A stretch of 64,000 bases of DNA from Bacteroidia bacterium (lineage in GTDB: Bacteria > Bacteroidota > Bacteroidia > J057). The stretch spans positions 248,001-312,000 of the forward strand of contig JALEFZ010000088.1 in assembly GCA_022760475.1 (NCBI GenBank), written 5' to 3'. How positions within the stretch are numbered: the first letter of the stretch is position 1; the number at the start of each line of letters is the position of its first letter. Shown piece by piece: positions 32,088 to 63,815 of the stretch. The position numbers were made by a program, and so were the translations under genes. The notes under the pieces are model-generated. The model made no database searches. It was given only the letters and a program-made list of their open reading frames with translations, and was not told the DNA's origin.

Positions 32088-32567
32088 ATGAGAAGGACTT
32101 ATACTACTTGCAAATGCGCCAAAAAGGGGCCTGGGAAACGTATATCTTCACTTTTCCCAACGGTAGGTGGCTTTATATTAGCCATTTTGCCGAAATGTCC
32201 TTTTTGTGTCCTTGCATATACCAGCGCCCTCAGTCTGTGTGGCAGTACCCAACTTCATTACCCTGTTTGGGCATCCTGGATTTCCCTCTCATTTGCTTTG
32301 CTTACCCTCTTTTTTGTTTTGTACAACTACAAAGGCACAAAGACTATTCTTTCTGCTTCCATTGTCAGCATCGGTTGCCTTCTAATCGTGTGGGCAGAAC
32401 TCAATACGGGTTCTTTATATGACTATTATGCTGGGACTTCGCTGGTTTTGTTGGGGGTATGGATCAATGGAAGTTTGTTTCATTTTCTGAAGAAGGGGAT
32501 GGCCTTTTTTCACAAGAGTTTAGGAATAAAAAAAATCATCAGGCCTCTAGAGCCGGGTGATACTTGA
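32088..32567 (+). CDS. Small Cys-rich membrane protein upstream of cox genes
   Basis: The 159-residue protein has about four transmembrane segments. Cysteines lie at 8 and 10 (CxC), 37 and 40 (PKCPFC at the start of the first helix) and 51 (SLCG). The CPFC-in-membrane arrangement recalls small MerC/MerT-like metal-handling membrane proteins, but I do not recognise a named family. It ends 22 bp before coxM on the same strand and could be the first gene of the operon. Copper handling for the Mo-Cu enzyme is a speculation from location and Cys content only. Confidence 0.6.
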   Translation: MRRTYTTCKCAKKGPGKRISSLFPTVGGFILAILPKCPFCVLAYTSALSLCGSTQLHYPVWASWISLSFALLTLFFVLYNYKGTKTILSASIVSIGCLLIVWAELNTGSLYDYYAGTSLVLLGVWINGSLFHFLKKGMAFFHKSLGIKKIIRPLEPGDT

Positions 32568-32589: not shown

Positions 32590-33465
32590 ATGATACCAGC
32601 TCCATTTGACTATTCAGCACCGGGGAGTCTGGAAGAAGCTATTAGCCTTTTGAAGGAACATGGCGATGACGCCAAAATCCTGGCTGGAGGCCATAGCTTG
32701 ATTCCCATGATGAAACTCAGGCTTGCTGAACCAGAGCATCTGATAGACATCAACAACATTCCCGGATTGTCCTACGTGAAGGAAGAGGACGGAAAATTGA
32801 AAATTGGCGCACTAACCACAGAAACAGAATTGGAATATTCTGCTGCTGCTGAAGGAAGGTTCCCCATTTTCAAAGATGTAAGTAAGCTAATTGCAGACCC
32901 CCAAGTTCGAAACCTGGGTACCATAGGAGGTAACATCGCTCATGGAGATGCTGCAAATGACCACCCTGCTGTGATGATGGCCTTGAATGCAGAAGTTGAG
33001 ATCACAGGAGAAAATGGAGCCCGAATGGTTGGAATCGATGATTTCTTCTTTGGTTTCTACATGACTGCTGTGCAGCCAAATGAGATCCTTACTGGGATTC
33101 AGTTTCCCCTTCCACCCAAGGGAACGGGAAATGCCTACCACAAATTGGAAAGGAAGGTGGGAGACTACGCCACTGCCGGAGTAGCCGTCCAGATTTCTGT
33201 AGATTCCAATAATGTGTGCACAAATGTAGGTATTGGCCTGACCAATGTTAATCCCAAGCCTCTAAGAGCCAAAAGGTCTGAAGATCATTTGAAAGGCAAA
33301 GTCCTCAGCCCGGACTTGATCCAGGAAGCTGCCCAAATGGCTTCTGAAGATTGTAGCCCTTCGCCTGACTTAAGGGGAAGTGAGGAATACAAGCGTGCCA
33401 TGGTGGGGGTATTGACCAAGCGCATGATCAACAAAGCCCTCGAAAGAGCGAAAGCTGACTACTAA
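32590..33465 (+). CDS. coxM: Aerobic CO dehydrogenase medium subunit (FAD-binding)
   Basis: The 291-residue flavoprotein passes electrons from the iron-sulfur subunit to the acceptor. The two FAD-binding motifs are AGGHSLIPM at residues 32-40 and [16 protein letters not shown] beginning at about 111, both typical of CoxM (CutM) proteins. The C-terminal CO-dehydrogenase flavoprotein domain is complete. It opens a tight run of co-directional genes in the order M-S-L, which is the order of form I carbon monoxide dehydrogenases; form II relatives are commonly S-L-M. Confidence 0.9.
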
Positions 33466-33499: not shown

Positions 33500-34000
33500 A
33501 TGAAAAATATAACCGTCAAAATCAACGGGGAAGAGAAAACCCTTGACATAGAGCCCAGGCTCTTGCTGGTTCATTTGATCAGAGAGAATCTGAGCATGAC
33601 AGGTACACATATTGGTTGTGATACTTCTAGTTGCGGGGCATGTACTGTATTGCTGGATGGTAAATCTGTGAAATCTTGTACTGTTCTGGCAGTTCAGGCC
33701 CATGGAAAAGAAATTACCACCATTGAAGGCATCGCTGCACCTGGTGAAATGCACCCCCTCCAAGAGGGTTTCAAGGAGAATCACGGTCTTCACTGCGGTT
33801 TTTGTACACCGGGCATGATCATGCGAGGGATGGAACTCCTCGAAAGAAACCCCAATCCTACAGAAGATGAAATTCGTTGGGGTATCTCCGGCAACCTATG
33901 CCGTTGCACAGGCTACAACAACATCGTAAAGGCTATTCAGTATGCCGGTGCCAAAATGCGCGGTGATGAATTGCCTGATACAGAGCCTGAATTTGTATAA
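33500..34000 (+). CDS. coxS: Aerobic CO dehydrogenase small subunit (2x [2Fe-2S])
   Basis: This 166-residue subunit carries two clusters. The plant-type ferredoxin cluster ligands are Cys40, Cys45, Cys48 and Cys60 (CDTSSCGAC). The proximal cluster ligands are Cys99, Cys102, Cys134 and Cys136 (CGFC and CRC). All eight are present, so the electron path from molybdenum to FAD is intact. The gene starts 34 bp after coxM and ends 33 bp before coxL. Confidence 0.93.
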
Positions 34001-34033: not shown

Positions 34034-36415
34034 ATGGATGATAAGCATAAAATACAGTGTAAAACCTCCAAGGCCATCAGTGGAATGGGCCATTCCATGA
34101 AACGTAAGGAGGATGCACGATTTGTAAAAGGAGCCGGAAACTATGTAGATGATGTAAAGCTACCCGGCATGCTTTATATGGACATTGTGAGAAGTCCATT
34201 TGCTTACGCAAAAATCAAAAAAATCCACACAGAAGAAGCCCTTAAAATCCCTGGTGTAGTTGCGATTGTTACAGGCAAAGACCTGGAGCAATATAACCTG
34301 CACTGGATGCCTACCTTGATGTCAGATACCCAGATGGTGCTTCCTACAGATACTGTGATGTATCAGGCTCAGGAAGTTGCAGCAGTAATTGCGACAAGCA
34401 GGTATGCAGCCAGAGATGGCCGAGAAGCTGTAATGGTGGATTATGAGCCGATGAAGCCAGTCATTGATCCTTTCAAGGCACTTGAACCAGATGCCCCTGT
34501 TTTGAGAACAGATAAGGAAGGCCAAGACAGCAATCATATTTGGCACTGGGAAGCAGGCGATAAGGAAAAAACCGAAAAGATATTCAACGAAGCTGACGTA
34601 GTGGTTAAGGAACAAATGCACATTCCCCGGATCCACGTAGCTTCTATTGAAACCTGCGGTTGTGTAGCCGATTACAACAAGGTTGAAAATCACCTTACAA
34701 TGTACATGACTACGCAGGCTCCCCACGCCATTCGAACCGTAATTGCCCTTGTGGCAGGCCATGTAGGTCTGACGGAAGAAAAGGTCAGGGTTATATCTCC
34801 CGACATCGGTGGTGGATTCGGTGGTAAAGTACCTGTTTATCCAGGTTACGTGATTGCCATTGCAGTTTCCTTCCTCGTAGGAAAGCCCATCAAGTGGATC
34901 GAGGACAGAAGTGAAAACCTTCAGGCAGACTCATTTGCCCGAGACTATCATATTACAGCTGAAATGGCTGCTACCAAGGAAGGGAAAATCCTGGGTACAC
35001 GTTTCAAAATTCTAGCTGACCACGGCTATACAGATGCCGCTGCAAACCCTTCCAAATACCCGACTGGACTGTTCTCAATCGGAACAGGTTCATATAACTA
35101 TGACACTGCCTTTATGGAGGCAGATGCCATCTACACCAACAAGCCACCCGGAGGAGTTGCTTACCGCTGTTCATTCCGTGTAACGGAAGCCGTACATGCC
35201 ATCGAGCGGATTACTGACCGACTGGCACAGGAAATCGGTAAAGACCCAGCCCTCTTACGTCTGGAAAACTTCATCAAAAAGGAAGAGTTCCCATGGAAGT
35301 CTCCTACAGGATGGGAGTATGACAGTGGAGACTACGAAGCTGGCTTACTGAAAGCGATGGAAGTCATCAATTACGACGAACTCCGAGTTGAGCAAGCTGA
35401 AAAGAGAGCCAAAGGTGAACTCATGGGTATTGGTATTTCAACCTTTACCGAGATTGTAGGTGCTGGTCCATCCAAGGACTTTGACATCTTGGGGATCAAG
35501 ATGTTTGACAGTGCCGAGATCCGCGTACACCCCACAGGCAAAGCCATAGCAAGATTTGGAACCAAATCTCAGGGACAGGGTCATGAAACGACCTACGCTC
35601 AGATCATCGCTGAAGAACTAGGAATTCCAGCTGAACACATTCAGGTGGAAGAAGGAGATACAGATACGGCACCATATGGTCTCGGAACATATGCCAGCCG
35701 TAGTACACCTACTGCAGGTGCCGCTGCTGCCATGGCTGCAAGAAAACTAAGAGATAAGGCCAAGAAAATCGCAGCTCACCTACTAGAGGTATCTGAAGAT
35801 GAACTTGAGTGGGAGCCTGGGAAATTTTTCGTAAAAGGGGCTCCGGAAAAGGCCAAAACCATCCAGGAGATTGTCTTCGCCGCTTACACCAACCACCCTC
35901 AGGGGATGGAGGCAGGCTTCGAAGCAACCCATTACTATGATCCTCCGAATCTGACTTTCCCTTCAGGTGCATATATCTGTGTAGTAGACATTGATAATGA
36001 AACCGGAGAAATCAAAATTCGTCGATTTGTAGCGATAGATGACTGTGGACACATCATCAACCCGATGATTGTACAGGGACAGGTTCATGGTGGATTGACA
36101 CAGGGAATGGCTCCAGCCATGTACGAGGAGTTGATCTACGATGAAGAAGGAAACATTCTTAATGGTACATTTATGGACTATCTGGTACCTACTGCGGTGG
36201 AATCACCAAATTGGGAAACAGGCCATACCATTACACCTTCTCCCCACCACCCAATCGGTGCAAAGGGAGTAGGGGAGTCTCCAACTGTAGGCGCACCTCC
36301 TGCCATTGCCAATGCCATCGTAGATGCATTGTCTCACCTTGGCGTTACCCACATTGATATTCCAATTACTCCACATAAGGTATGGAAAATCCTTAGAGAA
36401 AAAGGAGTAGCATAA
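34034..36415 (+). CDS. coxL: Form I aerobic CO dehydrogenase large subunit (Mo-Cu active site)
   Basis: The 793-residue subunit holds the molybdopterin cytosine dinucleotide cofactor. The active-site loop reads AYRCSFR (residues 376-382), with Cys379 as the expected copper ligand; this loop distinguishes form I enzymes from form II homologues, which have AYRGAGR. GGGFGGK at 259-265 and Glu748 in GVGESP match the cofactor-contact glycine loop and the base Glu next to molybdenum. The enzyme oxidises CO with water to CO2 and feeds electrons through CoxS and CoxM. Length and all signature regions are intact, so it is expected to be active. Confidence 0.93.
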   Translation: MDDKHKIQCKTSKAISGMGHSMKRKEDARFVKGAGNYVDDVKLPGMLYMDIVRSPFAYAKIKKIHTEEALKIPGVVAIVTGKDLEQYNLHWMPTLMSDTQMVLPTDTVMYQAQEVAAVIATSRYAARDGREAVMVDYEPMKPVIDPFKALEPDAPVLRTDKEGQDSNHIWHWEAGDKEKTEKIFNEADVVVKEQMHIPRIHVASIETCGCVADYNKVENHLTMYMTTQAPHAIRTVIALVAGHVGLTEEKVRVISPDIGGGFGGKVPVYPGYVIAIAVSFLVGKPIKWIEDRSENLQADSFARDYHITAEMAATKEGKILGTRFKILADHGYTDAAANPSKYPTGLFSIGTGSYNYDTAFMEADAIYTNKPPGGVAYRCSFRVTEAVHAIERITDRLAQEIGKDPALLRLENFIKKEEFPWKSPTGWEYDSGDYEAGLLKAMEVINYDELRVEQAEKRAKGELMGIGISTFTEIVGAGPSKDFDILGIKMFDSAEIRVHPTGKAIARFGTKSQGQGHETTYAQIIAEELGIPAEHIQVEEGDTDTAPYGLGTYASRSTPTAGAAAAMAARKLRDKAKKIAAHLLEVSEDELEWEPGKFFVKGAPEKAKTIQEIVFAAYTNHPQGMEAGFEATHYYDPPNLTFPSGAYICVVDIDNETGEIKIRRFVAIDDCGHIINPMIVQGQVHGGLTQGMAPAMYEELIYDEEGNILNGTFMDYLVPTAVESPNWETGHTITPSPHHPIGAKGVGESPTVGAPPAIANAIVDALSHLGVTHIDIPITPHKVWKILREKGVA

Positions 36416-36524: not shown

Positions 36525-37163
36525 ATGAAAGCAAACATTGAGAAGACTTTCGAAATAGACCAGCCCGTCGAAAAGGTTTGGGCTTTTCTAAGCGATATTG
36601 AGAAAGTTGTTACCTGTGTACCCGGAGCCCAATTGACCGAAAAGGTAGATGACTCCAACTACAAGGGGAAGGTTTCCCTAAAATTTGGTCCTGTAGCAGC
36701 TGCATATGATGGTGCCATCACCATTGATACCATGGATGCGAATAGTCACAACATGGTACTTTCTGGTACAGGAATGGATTCAAAGGGAAAAGGAAGTGCG
36801 GGGATGACACTCAACAGCAGCCTTACTTCCAAAGACCCCAAGCTCACAGAGGTAGGGTACAACATGGATGTGACTGTGACGGGTAAGTTGGCCCAGTTTG
36901 GATCACGCTTGATCGTAGACGTATCTGACCAATTGGCAGATCAGTTTATCGCTAAGTTCAAGGCTGCCCTTGCCGAGGAAGCTGCTCAGGAAGCTGCCCA
37001 TGAAAACGTTGCTGCTGAAGCAGGTGGAGGTTCAGCCACTGCTACTGCTACTACGGCGCCTCCCAAGCCCAAAGCCGCTGCTGAGGAAAACTCACTAAGT
37101 GTCTTTGCTATTCTGGGAGGACTGATCAAAAGATTTTTTGCCAGGCTGTTTGGCCGTTCGTAA
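36525..37163 (+). CDS. coxG: CoxG, SRPBCC-family CO dehydrogenase partner
   Basis: The 212-residue protein has an N-terminal SRPBCC lipid-binding fold (IEKTFEIDQPVEKVWAFLSD, then VVTCVPGA and KVSLKFGPV), an Ala/Pro-rich linker at about 150-185 and a hydrophobic/basic C-terminal tail (LGGLIKRFFARLFGRS). In characterised organisms CoxG is needed to attach CO dehydrogenase to the membrane, and work on the mycobacterial enzyme proposes that it hands quinone to the enzyme. The tail here fits membrane association. I choose the ATG at 36525 since it matches the family N-terminus. It lies between coxL and coxD. Confidence 0.87.
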   Translation: MKANIEKTFEIDQPVEKVWAFLSDIEKVVTCVPGAQLTEKVDDSNYKGKVSLKFGPVAAAYDGAITIDTMDANSHNMVLSGTGMDSKGKGSAGMTLNSSLTSKDPKLTEVGYNMDVTVTGKLAQFGSRLIVDVSDQLADQFIAKFKAALAEEAAQEAAHENVAAEAGGGSATATATTAPPKPKAAAEENSLSVFAILGGLIKRFFARLFGRS

Positions 37164-37181
37164 GAATTAAACATATCATAA

Positions 37182-38087
37182 GTGGGAGAATTGAACCTTG
37201 GGGTATTTGATAGCCCGGAAAGTGTGATCGCTGCCTGCGACTCTTGTGGGTACCTGGCTGATGATGAATTGGCTACTGCCTTGTTTTTGGCCTATAAACT
37301 TGGTAAACCTCTTTTGCTAGAGGGGCATCCAGGTGTGGGGAAAACCGAGGTCGCAAATGTCCTTGCCAAAGCCCTTGATACCAATCTGATTAGGCTCCAG
37401 TGTTATGAGGGCCTTGATGTGAATTCTGCAGTTTATGAGTGGAATTATCAAAAGCAACTCCTCTCTATCAGAATCGCGCAAAATGGGAATGGGCATACTG
37501 GAAATTTGGAAAAACATATTTTCGGGAAGGACTTTCTGTTGAAAAGGCCTTTGCTGCAATCCATTACCCAGGAAAAATCTCCTGTTTTGCTAATTGACGA
37601 AGTTGATCGGGCGGATGAGGAATTCGAGGCATTTCTCCTGGAATTGCTCTCCGCTTATCAAATAAGTATCCCTGAAATGGGAACCATCGAGGCCAGTAAG
37701 AAACCTATCGTTATCCTTACCTCCAATCGAACCCGGGAGTTGAGCGATGCCTTAAAACGACGTTGCCTCTATATTTGGAATGACTTTCCTGATTTTGAAA
37801 AAGAAATGAACATTGTCAAAAAGCACCATCCCCACATTGAGGAGAGCTTGGTCAGACAAGTCATTCATGCAATCCAATACCTAAGAGAACAAAAACTTAC
37901 CAAGTACCCAGGCATTTCTGAATCCATAGACTGGGCATCGGCTTTGCTTGCCATCGGAACCCAAAAGCTGGATCGAAAAAGCATCGAAAAAACCCTCAGT
38001 TGTGTGCTGAAGGCAGTAGATGATGTAGATAAAATGAAAAATGGGGAGTTGGAAAGGATGTTGGGAGAGCTAGCAACTGTCATTTAA
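37182..38087 (+). CDS. coxD: CoxD, MoxR-type AAA+ ATPase
   Basis: The 301-residue ATPase has Walker A GHPGVGKT at residues 48-55, Walker B LLIDEVD ending near residue 142, and the sensor segment ILTSNRTRELSDALKRRC. In Oligotropha, CoxD is implicated in sulfuration of the molybdenum centre. It starts at a GTG 18 bp after coxG and overlaps coxE by one base (TAATG), so ATPase and VWA partner are translated together, as is usual for MoxR-VWA chaperone pairs. Confidence 0.9.
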   Translation: MGELNLGVFDSPESVIAACDSCGYLADDELATALFLAYKLGKPLLLEGHPGVGKTEVANVLAKALDTNLIRLQCYEGLDVNSAVYEWNYQKQLLSIRIAQNGNGHTGNLEKHIFGKDFLLKRPLLQSITQEKSPVLLIDEVDRADEEFEAFLLELLSAYQISIPEMGTIEASKKPIVILTSNRTRELSDALKRRCLYIWNDFPDFEKEMNIVKKHHPHIEESLVRQVIHAIQYLREQKLTKYPGISESIDWASALLAIGTQKLDRKSIEKTLSCVLKAVDDVDKMKNGELERMLGELATVI

Positions 38088-39232
38088 TGCAGGATCAACA
38101 ACGAGCAGAAGATTTTACAACTTATTCGGAGGCCATCATTGGCTTTGTTCAATGGCTCAGGCTTCAGGGGATGGGTGTAGGGATACATGAGTCCCAACAA
38201 GCCCTTATGGCAGCAGAATTTGGCTGTATCAAAGAAAAAGCATTACTCAAAAATGCCTTCAGGCTTATATTCTGTACCTCTCCTTCAGATAGACAACAGT
38301 TTGATTCACTTTTTGAGTTTTTCTGGGGAAGAGAAAAAATAGCCGTTAAAGGAAAAACAACTTATAAGAACCAATCCAACATTAAGAAAAAATCTCCTGC
38401 CTCTCTTGTATGGATGGGCATGGGCAATGGAAGTGAAGATCAAAAAGAGGATGCAAAAAAGGTATCAGGAGCCAATCAGGTAGCACGATTAAGGAAAACA
38501 GATTTTACCAGACTCACTGAAATGGAAAGCGAGGAACTGGAGGAAATCGCACAGAAGCTCTGGAAGCAAATGAGCCTTCGGATGAAGCGAAAAATGAAGG
38601 CTTCTGCCAATCATGGGAGGATAGACCTTAGAAATACCCTTCGAAGGAGTCTGAATTATGGTGGTGAATTGATTGAATTAAGGAAAAAATCTCCCAAAGC
38701 ACGTAGGAAAAAGTTGGTTGTGTTATTGGACGTTAGCGGTTCTATGGACACCTACAGTTTTTTTCTGCTTCGATTCATCTGTGCCTTAAGGGTTCACTTT
38801 GCAAAAATTGAGGCCTTCCTTTTCAGCACCCATTTGATCAGAATAACTGAGTATTTGCACACCCAAAATCTGGAAACTACTTTAAAGTTAATGTCCTTAA
38901 GGACAGACAATTGGTCCAGTGGGACAAGGATAGGGGAGAGCCTAAAACAATTCAACGATTCTTTTGCAAGAGAGATCCTTCATGGACATTCTACCGTCAT
39001 CATCTTGAGTGATGGACTGGATACCGGGGAACCGGACTTGGTTGAGGAGGAGATCAAAAAGATAAAACTCAGAACAAGGCAACTCATTTGGCTGAATCCC
39101 CTGAAGGGAACTATGGGCTACGAACCCATTCAAAAAGGAATGGCAGCCGCCCTCCCCCAGTTGGACCATTTTAGGTCAGCCAATACCCTTGACAGTATTT
39201 TAGAACTAGAGAAACTTTTGATAAATGTCTGA
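38087..39232 (+). CDS. coxE: CoxE, VWA-domain maturation protein
   Basis: The 381-residue cytoplasmic protein has a C-terminal VWA domain with MIDAS DVSGSM at residues 215-220 and ILSDGLDTG further on. The N-terminal part (FVQWLRLQGMGVGIHESQQAL) is the typical CoxE helical domain, joined by a basic linker. It is the partner of CoxD; CoxE and CoxF are reported to act in copper insertion in Oligotropha. It overlaps coxF by 8 bases. Confidence 0.9.
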   Translation: MQDQQRAEDFTTYSEAIIGFVQWLRLQGMGVGIHESQQALMAAEFGCIKEKALLKNAFRLIFCTSPSDRQQFDSLFEFFWGREKIAVKGKTTYKNQSNIKKKSPASLVWMGMGNGSEDQKEDAKKVSGANQVARLRKTDFTRLTEMESEELEEIAQKLWKQMSLRMKRKMKASANHGRIDLRNTLRRSLNYGGELIELRKKSPKARRKKLVVLLDVSGSMDTYSFFLLRFICALRVHFAKIEAFLFSTHLIRITEYLHTQNLETTLKLMSLRTDNWSSGTRIGESLKQFNDSFAREILHGHSTVIILSDGLDTGEPDLVEEEIKKIKLRTRQLIWLNPLKGTMGYEPIQKGMAAALPQLDHFRSANTLDSILELEKLLINV

Positions 39233-40211
39233 CGAATTTTTTAATAAAGCACTGAAGCTCTCAGGAGAAAAGGAACCCTATGCAATTGCCATGGTGGTAA
39301 ATAGGCAGATTCCTTCCTCGGGGAAACCGGGTGATAAGGCGATCATTCGAAAGAATGGTCAGATTGAAGGTTGGATTGGAGGGGGATGCACAAGGGGAAT
39401 CGTCTTGAAGGAAGCCCAGGAGGCCATTTTGGAAGGAAGTCCCAGACTGGTGAAAATCAAGCCAAACGGAGAATCTACGAGTACAAAAGGTGTGAAGGAA
39501 TACCCCATGACCTGCCACAGTGGGGGTAGTGTTGAAATCTATATCGAACCTGTTTTGCCCAAACCTCATATCCTGATTCTGGGGAAATCCCATATTGCCA
39601 TGGCGTTGGCCAAGATTACCCATGCCATGGGTTATACCATGGATGTCGTAGCCAAGGGAGCTGAATCCTATGCCTTTCCACAAGTTTCTACCATTGGGGA
39701 AGATTATTACAAACTGGATGAAATTGTGTCAGCCAATACCTTCATCGTAGTGTGTACCCAAGGCGAAAATGATGAAGATGCCCTGGAGAACGCCATTCGT
39801 ACTGGAGCTTCCTATATATCGTTTGTTGCAAGCAGGAGAAAAGCCAATGCAATCTTTAACCAAATGCGTCAGCGCGGACTGACCTTTGATCACTTGAAAA
39901 AAATCAAAACACCTGCAGGATTGGATATCAATGCCAAATATCCTGAAGAGGTTGCTGTGAGCATACTTGCAGAAATTATCAAGGAGATTAGGTCTGATCA
40001 GGAAAGCCCATCTGATTCTCAAAGTGCTGAGGGGAAAAAGACAGCTTTGGAAGGCAATGAAAATATTTTCATTAATCCTGTTTGTGGCATTCCTGTAGAA
40101 AAAAGTTCAGCTAAGCATGTCATCAGTTATAAGGAGAAGGACTACTACTTCTGTTGTGATGGGTGCAAGGTATCTTTTGAAAAAGAACCTGAAAAATATG
40201 CCTTGGCATAG
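39225..40211 (+). CDS. coxF: CoxF, XdhC/CoxI-family protein fused to a YHS domain
   Basis: The 328-residue protein has an N-terminal CoxI/XdhC segment with GWIGGGCTRG, a Rossmann-like XdhC domain at about 115-240 (PHILILGKSHIAMALAKI) and a variable linker. It ends in a YHS domain at about 283-327 with Cys287 (NPVCGIPVE) and Cys310, Cys311 and Cys314 (FCCDGC). XdhC-type proteins prepare or load the molybdenum cofactor, and YHS domains are found with metal transporters and oxygenases. The fusion suggests delivery of copper to the Mo-Cu site, which is an inference. It is the last gene of the cox run. Confidence 0.85.
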   Translation: MSDEFFNKALKLSGEKEPYAIAMVVNRQIPSSGKPGDKAIIRKNGQIEGWIGGGCTRGIVLKEAQEAILEGSPRLVKIKPNGESTSTKGVKEYPMTCHSGGSVEIYIEPVLPKPHILILGKSHIAMALAKITHAMGYTMDVVAKGAESYAFPQVSTIGEDYYKLDEIVSANTFIVVCTQGENDEDALENAIRTGASYISFVASRRKANAIFNQMRQRGLTFDHLKKIKTPAGLDINAKYPEEVAVSILAEIIKEIRSDQESPSDSQSAEGKKTALEGNENIFINPVCGIPVEKSSAKHVISYKEKDYYFCCDGCKVSFEKEPEKYALA

Positions 40212-40603
40212 ATGTGTGGCGAATGATTTTTCATCCCCTGGAATTACTCAATTTCAGTAAAGCTGATTCCTGGAAATTTTTTGAACACCTATTCGCCAAA
40301 AATCCAGGAAAAGCAATAAAAATTGTAACGAAATACTTGCCACTTTAGGCTTCGGCATCTTACCACCCTGTCAGGGTTATAACCCTGACAGGGTGGTATC
40401 GGATCGTCCCAACGAGCCAGCCTGTAACAAACAGCCTATTGATTTCAAGGGGATCAAAATCATGGCTTGATTGGGTTCAGTTTGCCCATTTTCTCCATCA
40501 AATTCTCAGTTTTCAACACGCTTTTTCAATGTAGTTTAACTATTGGGACGGGAATTGCGTAAATTACATTTGAATATGTGTATCTTTAGGTAAAGTCAAG
40601 CGT
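40212..40603. other. Spacer after the cox cluster containing a palindromic repeat
   Basis: No gene is supportable in these 392 bp. The notable content is the 38-bp palindrome at 40361-40398. A weak TATCTTTA at 40581-40588, 15 bp before the antitoxin start, could be a promoter element. Confidence 0.5.
40361..40398. repeat. Perfect 38-bp palindrome, copy 1 of a dispersed repeat
   Basis: The 19-base arms 40361-40379 and 40380-40398 are exact reverse complements with no spacer. The core unit CCCTG(T/A)CAGGG occurs twice, joined by TTATAA, and each unit is itself self-complementary. The same core occurs at 63770-63799 and in half form at 59041-59057. There is no T-run, so it is not a standard terminator, though a cruciform or RNA hairpin is likely. 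Confidence 0.9.
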
Positions 40604-59040: not shown

Positions 59041-59057
59041 TAACCCTGTCAGGGTTA
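59041..59057. repeat. Half copy of the dispersed palindromic repeat
   Basis: A 17-base sequence, self-complementary apart from its central base, has the same CCCTGTCAGGG core and flanking TTA as the full copies at 40361-40398 and 63770-63799, without the second unit. It lies between the response regulator and ankyrin genes. Confidence 0.8.
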
Positions 59058-63680: not shown

Positions 63681-63769
63681 GGTTATGATTATTTACATTT
63701 TGGAGATATGTCAAGATGAAATACCCTATCGTTAGGTGAATTCGGATTCAAGTAGGCTTTAAGACAACC

Positions 63770-63799
63770 ACCCTGTCAGGGTTATAACCCTGACAGGGT
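63770..63799. repeat. Dispersed palindromic repeat, copy 2
   Basis: Arms 63770-63784 and 63785-63799 are exact reverse complements, 15 bases each, with no spacer. The core equals that of the 40361-40398 copy. It lies in the convergent space between the T9SS protein gene and the DtxR-type gene. Confidence 0.9.
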
Positions 63800-63815
63800 T
63801 CCATTTATTTAGCCC

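Follow-up and report, generated by a model that had tools for sequence, protein, structure and literature searches.

We describe a CoxF maturation protein that carries a C-terminal YHS domain, and we found that this fusion is restricted to loci of the form I, Mo-Cu CO dehydrogenase (CODH), that the metal-ligand residues of its YHS domain are conserved, and that in one lineage an HMA domain stands in place of YHS. The fusion came to attention in a 64,000-nucleotide stretch of a Bacteroidia bacterium genome (contig JALEFZ010000088.1, positions 248,001 to 312,000; hereafter the window). The interpretation that we consider probable is that CoxF-YHS is a copper-inserting maturation factor of form I CODH, its YHS domain binding copper and passing it on, with both binding and transfer being inferred. 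The involvement of CoxF in copper insertion and the YHS domain as a probable copper module were already known separately. In Oligotropha, coxE and coxF mutants produce a CODH that has Mo-SH and lacks Cu (PMC4240915), in line with an earlier note on this DNA, which said that CoxE and CoxF are reported to act in copper insertion there.

In the window, coxF-YHS occupies 39225..40211 on the forward strand (ATG start, 328 aa), and the reading of this ORF as an XdhC protein fused to YHS, made in the earlier note from the letters alone, is confirmed by three Pfam domains scoring above their curated cut-offs: XdhC_CoxI at residues 15-77 (56.9 bits), the Rossmann domain XdhC_C at residues 117-251 (97 bits), and YHS at residues 283-326 (40071..40202, forward strand; PF04945, 53 bits against a cut-off of 30.3). 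Membership in the XdhC/CoxI family follows from both XdhC domains passing the gathering score and from a fold match to 2we8; identity as CoxF follows from the neighbourhood, the gene lying in one cluster with form I coxMSL and coxD/coxE; and membership in the YHS family follows from the PF04945 score together with the ligand set D/C-x2-C ... C-x3-C (N284 replacing D; C287, C310 and C314). The four cysteines listed in the note, Cys287, 310, 311 and 314, are all present, and the gene is the last of its cluster, as the note had it, the order being coxM-S-L-G-D-E-F. All of these genes lie on the forward strand: coxM (FAD subunit, 32590..33465) and coxS ([2Fe-2S] subunit, 33500..34000), both recognized by domain and family profile matches; coxL (34034..36415; TIGR02416, 1227.9 bits against a cut-off of 991), the form I Mo-Cu large subunit, in which AYRCSFR is the form I loop containing the Cu-ligand Cys; coxG (36525..37163; PF06240, 79.9 bits), for which the likely start, MKANIEKTF, was inferred from the sequence, the ORF being listed from 36447; coxD (37182..38087), a MoxR-type AAA+ ATPase matching AAA_5, with MadB as its nearest NCBIfam family, below the cut-off; and coxE (VWA_CoxE, 38087..39232; PF05762, 185 bits), the 3' end of which overlaps the start of coxF by 8 bases (ATGTCTGA). 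The sole other XdhC copy of this genome is on a different contig and lacks YHS. About 150 bp past coxF there is a 38-bp perfect palindrome with the core ACCCTGTCAGGGTTATAACCCTGACAGGGT (window 40361-40398), of which a near-copy is found at 63767-63802 and a half-copy at 59043, far above chance.

The earlier note knew of no description of such a fusion in this pathway; it is not a rarity but is common outside Alphaproteobacteria, and most of the lineages sampled have it. Across all long loci we found 150 CoxF-YHS ORFs, 147 of them distinct, in Bacteroidota, Chloroflexota, Gemmatimonadota, Acidobacteriota, Deinococcus, Burkholderiaceae, haloarchaea and others, a recurrence by which coxF-YHS can be neither a chance event nor an assembly artefact. 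A first draw of 149 relatives had the fusion in two genomes of the same family, G005, in a form I cox cluster, and G001, at a contig end; the remaining XdhC relatives of that draw were without YHS, and their enzyme neighbours, where detected, were non-form-I molybdoenzymes. A tblastn search against plasmids returned full-length fusions in Thermomicrobium roseum, Paraburkholderia, two Caballeronia, Deinococcus and Natronorubrum, and the five of these loci that were opened all adjoin form I coxL. When genome contigs were scanned for form I CoxL, 80 clusters spread over many phyla came up, with CoxF fused to YHS in 60; the complete CoxF proteins without YHS among them include those of L106 and L063. 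Homology searches with 26 fusions as queries yielded about 80 further fusions in 201 Chloroflexota and 298 Gemmatimonadota genomes, the latter being the phylum draw of G152 (which contains the Gemmatimonadota genome G151), and most of the neighbourhoods of these fusions were read. The sampling is biased to relatives of the starting fusions, many loci are from draft genomes, and Actinobacteria and most Proteobacteria were covered through plasmids only.

The co-occurrence of XdhC-YHS with form I CoxL, which the earlier note had proposed as a check, holds in 126 of the 150 fused ORFs, which have a form I CoxL no more than 12 kb away; another 6 have a partial CoxL, and 18 have none in the stretch. 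The 126 consist of 60 picked via CoxL, 65 picked via homology to the fusion, and the window, and since the link to CoxL exists by construction in the 80 scanned loci, it is the homology-selected set that provides the fair test. The 18 without CoxL lie at contig ends or in operons split by sdhAB and other genes, with CoxL 18 kb away in G529 and about 11 kb away in L267 and L287; in a few draft genomes bearing the fusion (e.g. G547 and G601), form I CoxL was not found at E<=1e-200. In one Gemmatimonadota group (L232 and L249, from G529 and G601, and relatives), coxMSL is many kb from coxF-YHS and coxD, which are flanked by a mocA-like gene on one side and sdhAB on the other. For none of the 150 fusions was a non-copper (non-form-I) relative found as the only CoxL-type neighbour, and the outcome that would have refuted the copper idea, a fusion located mainly beside non-copper enzymes, did not materialize. 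YHS was found on none of the 72 other XdhC proteins of the examined loci, and no stand-alone YHS genes were found when sought in loci L020-L123. The CoxF of G475, a member of a YHS-bearing subclade, has lost both YHS and C97; no form I CoxL was found in that genome, and its nearest CoxL-like enzyme has RGAGR.

The strongest new argument comes from the exchange of the YHS domain for another metal-binding domain. In an independent CoxL search, six of 296 genomes of the same phylum had form I CoxL, namely the window's own, four of the genus g131, and G815. At five form I loci (L305-L309, from G815, G653, G657, G691 and G699), CoxF carries HMA instead of YHS, in the same C-terminal slot after the XdhC part; the four proteins scanned with PF00403 scored 40-45 bits (cut-off 24.8), the motif (G/A)MSCAHC (MxCxxC) is present in all five, and the nearest solved structures are those of ATP7B, CopA and CopZ. 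In these HMA chaperones and Cu-ATPase N-domains the HMA domain is free or on an ATPase, whereas on CoxF it is fused to XdhC and takes the place that YHS has in the window protein, which itself has no HMA. Among 395 surveyed genomes of the phylum, eight CoxF proteins were counted, five with HMA and three with YHS. Because two unrelated metal-binding domains share one slot, the slot would seem to require that a transition metal be bound, and the metal that this enzyme needs is copper. The presence of YHS and HMA only on the CoxF of a copper enzyme thus strongly supports a role as a putative copper-delivery module, as far as sequence evidence can do so without copper-binding data. It likewise supports the suggestion of the earlier note that a metal-binding domain on CoxF would be a plausible direct copper donor, with binding and transfer both inferred.

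Delivery is not the only role by which such a domain could serve a copper enzyme. The YHS or HMA domain might instead be a copper sensor or gate, whereby Cu binding switches CoxF and licenses maturation while the metal of the enzyme arrives another way, and two facts keep this unlikely alternative in consideration: Oligotropha inserts Cu without YHS, and the sole biochemically tested YHS fusion found is an adenylyl cyclase that its YHS domain renders specifically Cu-responsive (PMC4626032). That cyclase, from Mycobacterium phlei, is like CoxF-YHS in having a C-terminal YHS with D, C, C, C ligands on an effector protein (PMC4626032), but its YHS is the sensor of a cyclase and its partner domain is unrelated. 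Against a gate, the tail of CoxF sits on a protein already implicated in Cu insertion. HMA domains, moreover, are primarily carriers or donors, and it is these that take the same slot.

The residues of the YHS domain itself also argue for a bound metal. Among 148 unique YHS domains compared, C287 and C310 are each present in 147 and C314 in all, while C311 is present in only 110, and residue 284 is Asp in 113 domains and Asn in 32. D/N284, C287, C310 and C314 make up the canonical YHS ligand set and agree with the D, C, C, C ligands of YHS/TRASH domains (PMC4626032), C311 being an extra, variable Cys; the four-Cys metal site originally envisaged therefore stands as to C287, C310 and C314, but C311 is not a conserved ligand. 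N284 is always paired with C311 (32/32), a pairing apparently limited to Bacteroidota, which cannot count as independent evidence. In three Chloroflexota loci, L111, L115 and L122, CoxF bears two YHS domains in tandem (two PF04945 stretches in L115). It could be argued that YHS is a structural, Zn-type domain or a docking module for CoxL or CoxE, with no copper role, as the TRASH-like L24e and the YHS-like modules of diiron hydroxylases are structural parts and the domain is dispensable in Alphaproteobacteria. We regard this as quite improbable, given that the Cys ligands are near-invariant while the rest of the domain varies, that HMA can take the place of YHS, and that in the loci examined the fusion has no association with non-Cu enzymes. 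In a structural comparison, Foldseek with the isolated YHS model (pLDDT 92.5) returned YHS-like modules of methane monooxygenase and phenol hydroxylase and L24e-like chains, all weak, with no E-value under 0.001. The whole-protein fold search was discarded as a source of information on YHS, as the Rossmann domain fills its match list. Some observations count against the copper reading. The CoxF proteins of L106 and L241 have only short Cys tails (GHCCHD at the end of the former; KDPACGC, all that is left of YHS, in the latter), and the Deinococcus YHS lacks C287 and falls just below the Pfam cut-off. YHS/TRASH domains bind Cd and Zn too, and Zn or Hg can be the cargo of HMA domains.

The AlphaFold2 model of the window CoxF (pLDDT 91.3) consists of an XdhC fold and a confidently predicted, separate YHS domain, with a low-confidence linker at residues ~260-280. 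Its XdhC part (residues 1-257) matches 2we8 (Z 19.3), 2we7 and 3on5, and this fold is shared with XdhC-family maturation factors such as R. capsulatus XdhC and the Rv0376c homologue 2we8, which, unlike the window CoxF, have no metal-binding tail and serve non-copper enzymes. Within the XdhC part, C55 and C97 are invariant in 56 fusions; both are also found in a general XdhC (L002) and hence are not copper-specific. The CoxF of Oligotropha (Afipia) carboxidovorans resembles the window protein in its coxMSL-D-E-F neighbourhood and in its XdhC_CoxI and XdhC_C domains (37% identity over residues 17-266), but it has no C-terminal YHS or HMA. It is needed for the Cu of CODH (PMC4240915), a requirement shown for the Oligotropha protein alone and inferred for the window CoxF. 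The Cu motif proposed for it, M107CPSHGTM (PMC4240915), falls on the general XdhC Cys position (C97 in the window CoxF), which is found also outside cox loci. That the Oligotropha protein nevertheless serves a copper enzyme implies that the domain is not an obligatory donor everywhere. Neither YHS nor HMA was found on the alphaproteobacterial CoxF proteins of Oligotropha, Rhizobium and Marivivens, the sequences of which end after the XdhC part. Right after coxF in Marivivens (L042, 9791-9913) there is a 40-aa ORF that ends in KFPCC and could be a separate Cys tail. In the tree, 84 CoxF-type rows, among them the window CoxF, split from 4 general XdhC proteins with a support of 100, and a single clade of YHS-type CoxF was not rejected (AU p 0.84). 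The alphaproteobacterial branch is unresolved, and a loss of YHS in Alphaproteobacteria is therefore not proven.

Paralogues of CoxF without YHS branch outside the YHS-type CoxF in this tree. Two loci, L063 (14487-19942) and L067 (14050-18153), have a second, CoxF-like XdhC without YHS beside mocA-like, SufS, SufU and further CoxD genes (named by eye), and the second cluster of L063 also has CoxE, CoxS and a truncated CoxL-like gene. The position of this paralogue beside SufS/SufU suggests, by inference only, that one XdhC protein can serve sulfuration and another copper insertion. XdhC proteins have been linked to Mo sulfuration (PMC4240915), and a CC pair occurs in many YHS domains of the set, so the cargo of the YHS cysteines could conceivably be sulfur or persulfide for that reaction rather than copper. 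We hold this to be very improbable: the XdhC beside SufS/SufU in L063 and L067 is a separate protein without YHS, the other XdhC proteins of the examined loci likewise have no YHS, and in one lineage HMA replaces it.

Under the copper-insertion reading that we favour, CoxF would dock on the apoenzyme through its XdhC part, and the YHS domain would bind one copper ion through C287, C310 and C314, the fourth ligand being D/N284 or, in domains with Asn at 284, C311, and would keep it beside the sulfurated Mo site. CoxD/CoxE would then aid the transfer of the copper, in the form of Cu(I), to the Mo-S/Cys(AYRCSFR) site. Copper binding, the oxidation state, the transfer and the docking geometry are all inferences. 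A protein that works in a comparable manner is CCS, the copper chaperone of Cu,Zn-SOD, in which a target-recognition domain and a copper-binding module serve one enzyme; however, its partner domain is not homologous, and CoxF is no member of that family.

At the head of the window operon, directly upstream of coxM, lies a gene for a small MerC-like membrane protein of 159 aa with CxC and LPKCPFC (32088..32567, forward strand), to which no Pfam or NCBIfam name was assigned; PF03203 MerC weakly matches 11 of 28 members of this family (best 3.9e-5). Where the upstream sequence of non-flavobacterial Bacteroidota form I loci is readable, most have a homologue ahead of coxM, while at flavobacterial cox loci the homologue is divergently oriented and a few kb off; the gene is kept at the cox loci of Saprospiraceae, Chitinophagaceae and Flammeovirgaceae and near those of Flavobacteriaceae. 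It was not found in any of the five HMA-type genomes, and only 4 of 296 genomes of the phylum have matches, 3 of which are weak and in genomes without form I CoxL, which makes the protein lineage-specific. It is a candidate metal transporter of the operon, and to assign it to copper supply is a guess. We can only tentatively put forth a wider scheme, which is somewhat less likely to be right than wrong, in which form I CODH has a dedicated, modular copper delivery in most lineages outside Alphaproteobacteria. It would comprise a MerC-like importer (in Bacteroidota), a CoxF whose Cu domain is exchangeable (YHS, tandem YHS or HMA) and gives Cu(I) to the sulfurated Mo, and a separate YHS-free CoxF paralogue that, with SufS/SufU, carries out the sulfuration.

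The fusion is widespread and apparently undescribed. Public records label it 'XdhC family protein', and a literature search, which left most subscription journals outside its coverage, found no paper joining YHS or HMA with CoxF/XdhC, in agreement with the earlier note, which knew of no description. Aerobic CO dehydrogenase accounts for much of the biological removal of CO, and the route by which copper gets to its unique Mo-S-Cu site is unresolved; the published copper model leans on two features, a phytase-like motif and an XdhC cysteine found in the family at large. The recurrence of CoxF-YHS and the HMA swap point to what physically carries the copper and to a small number of Cys residues, with which copper loading becomes directly testable, and they suggest taking the copper step to organisms other than Oligotropha, such as Thermomicrobium roseum with its YHS fusion.
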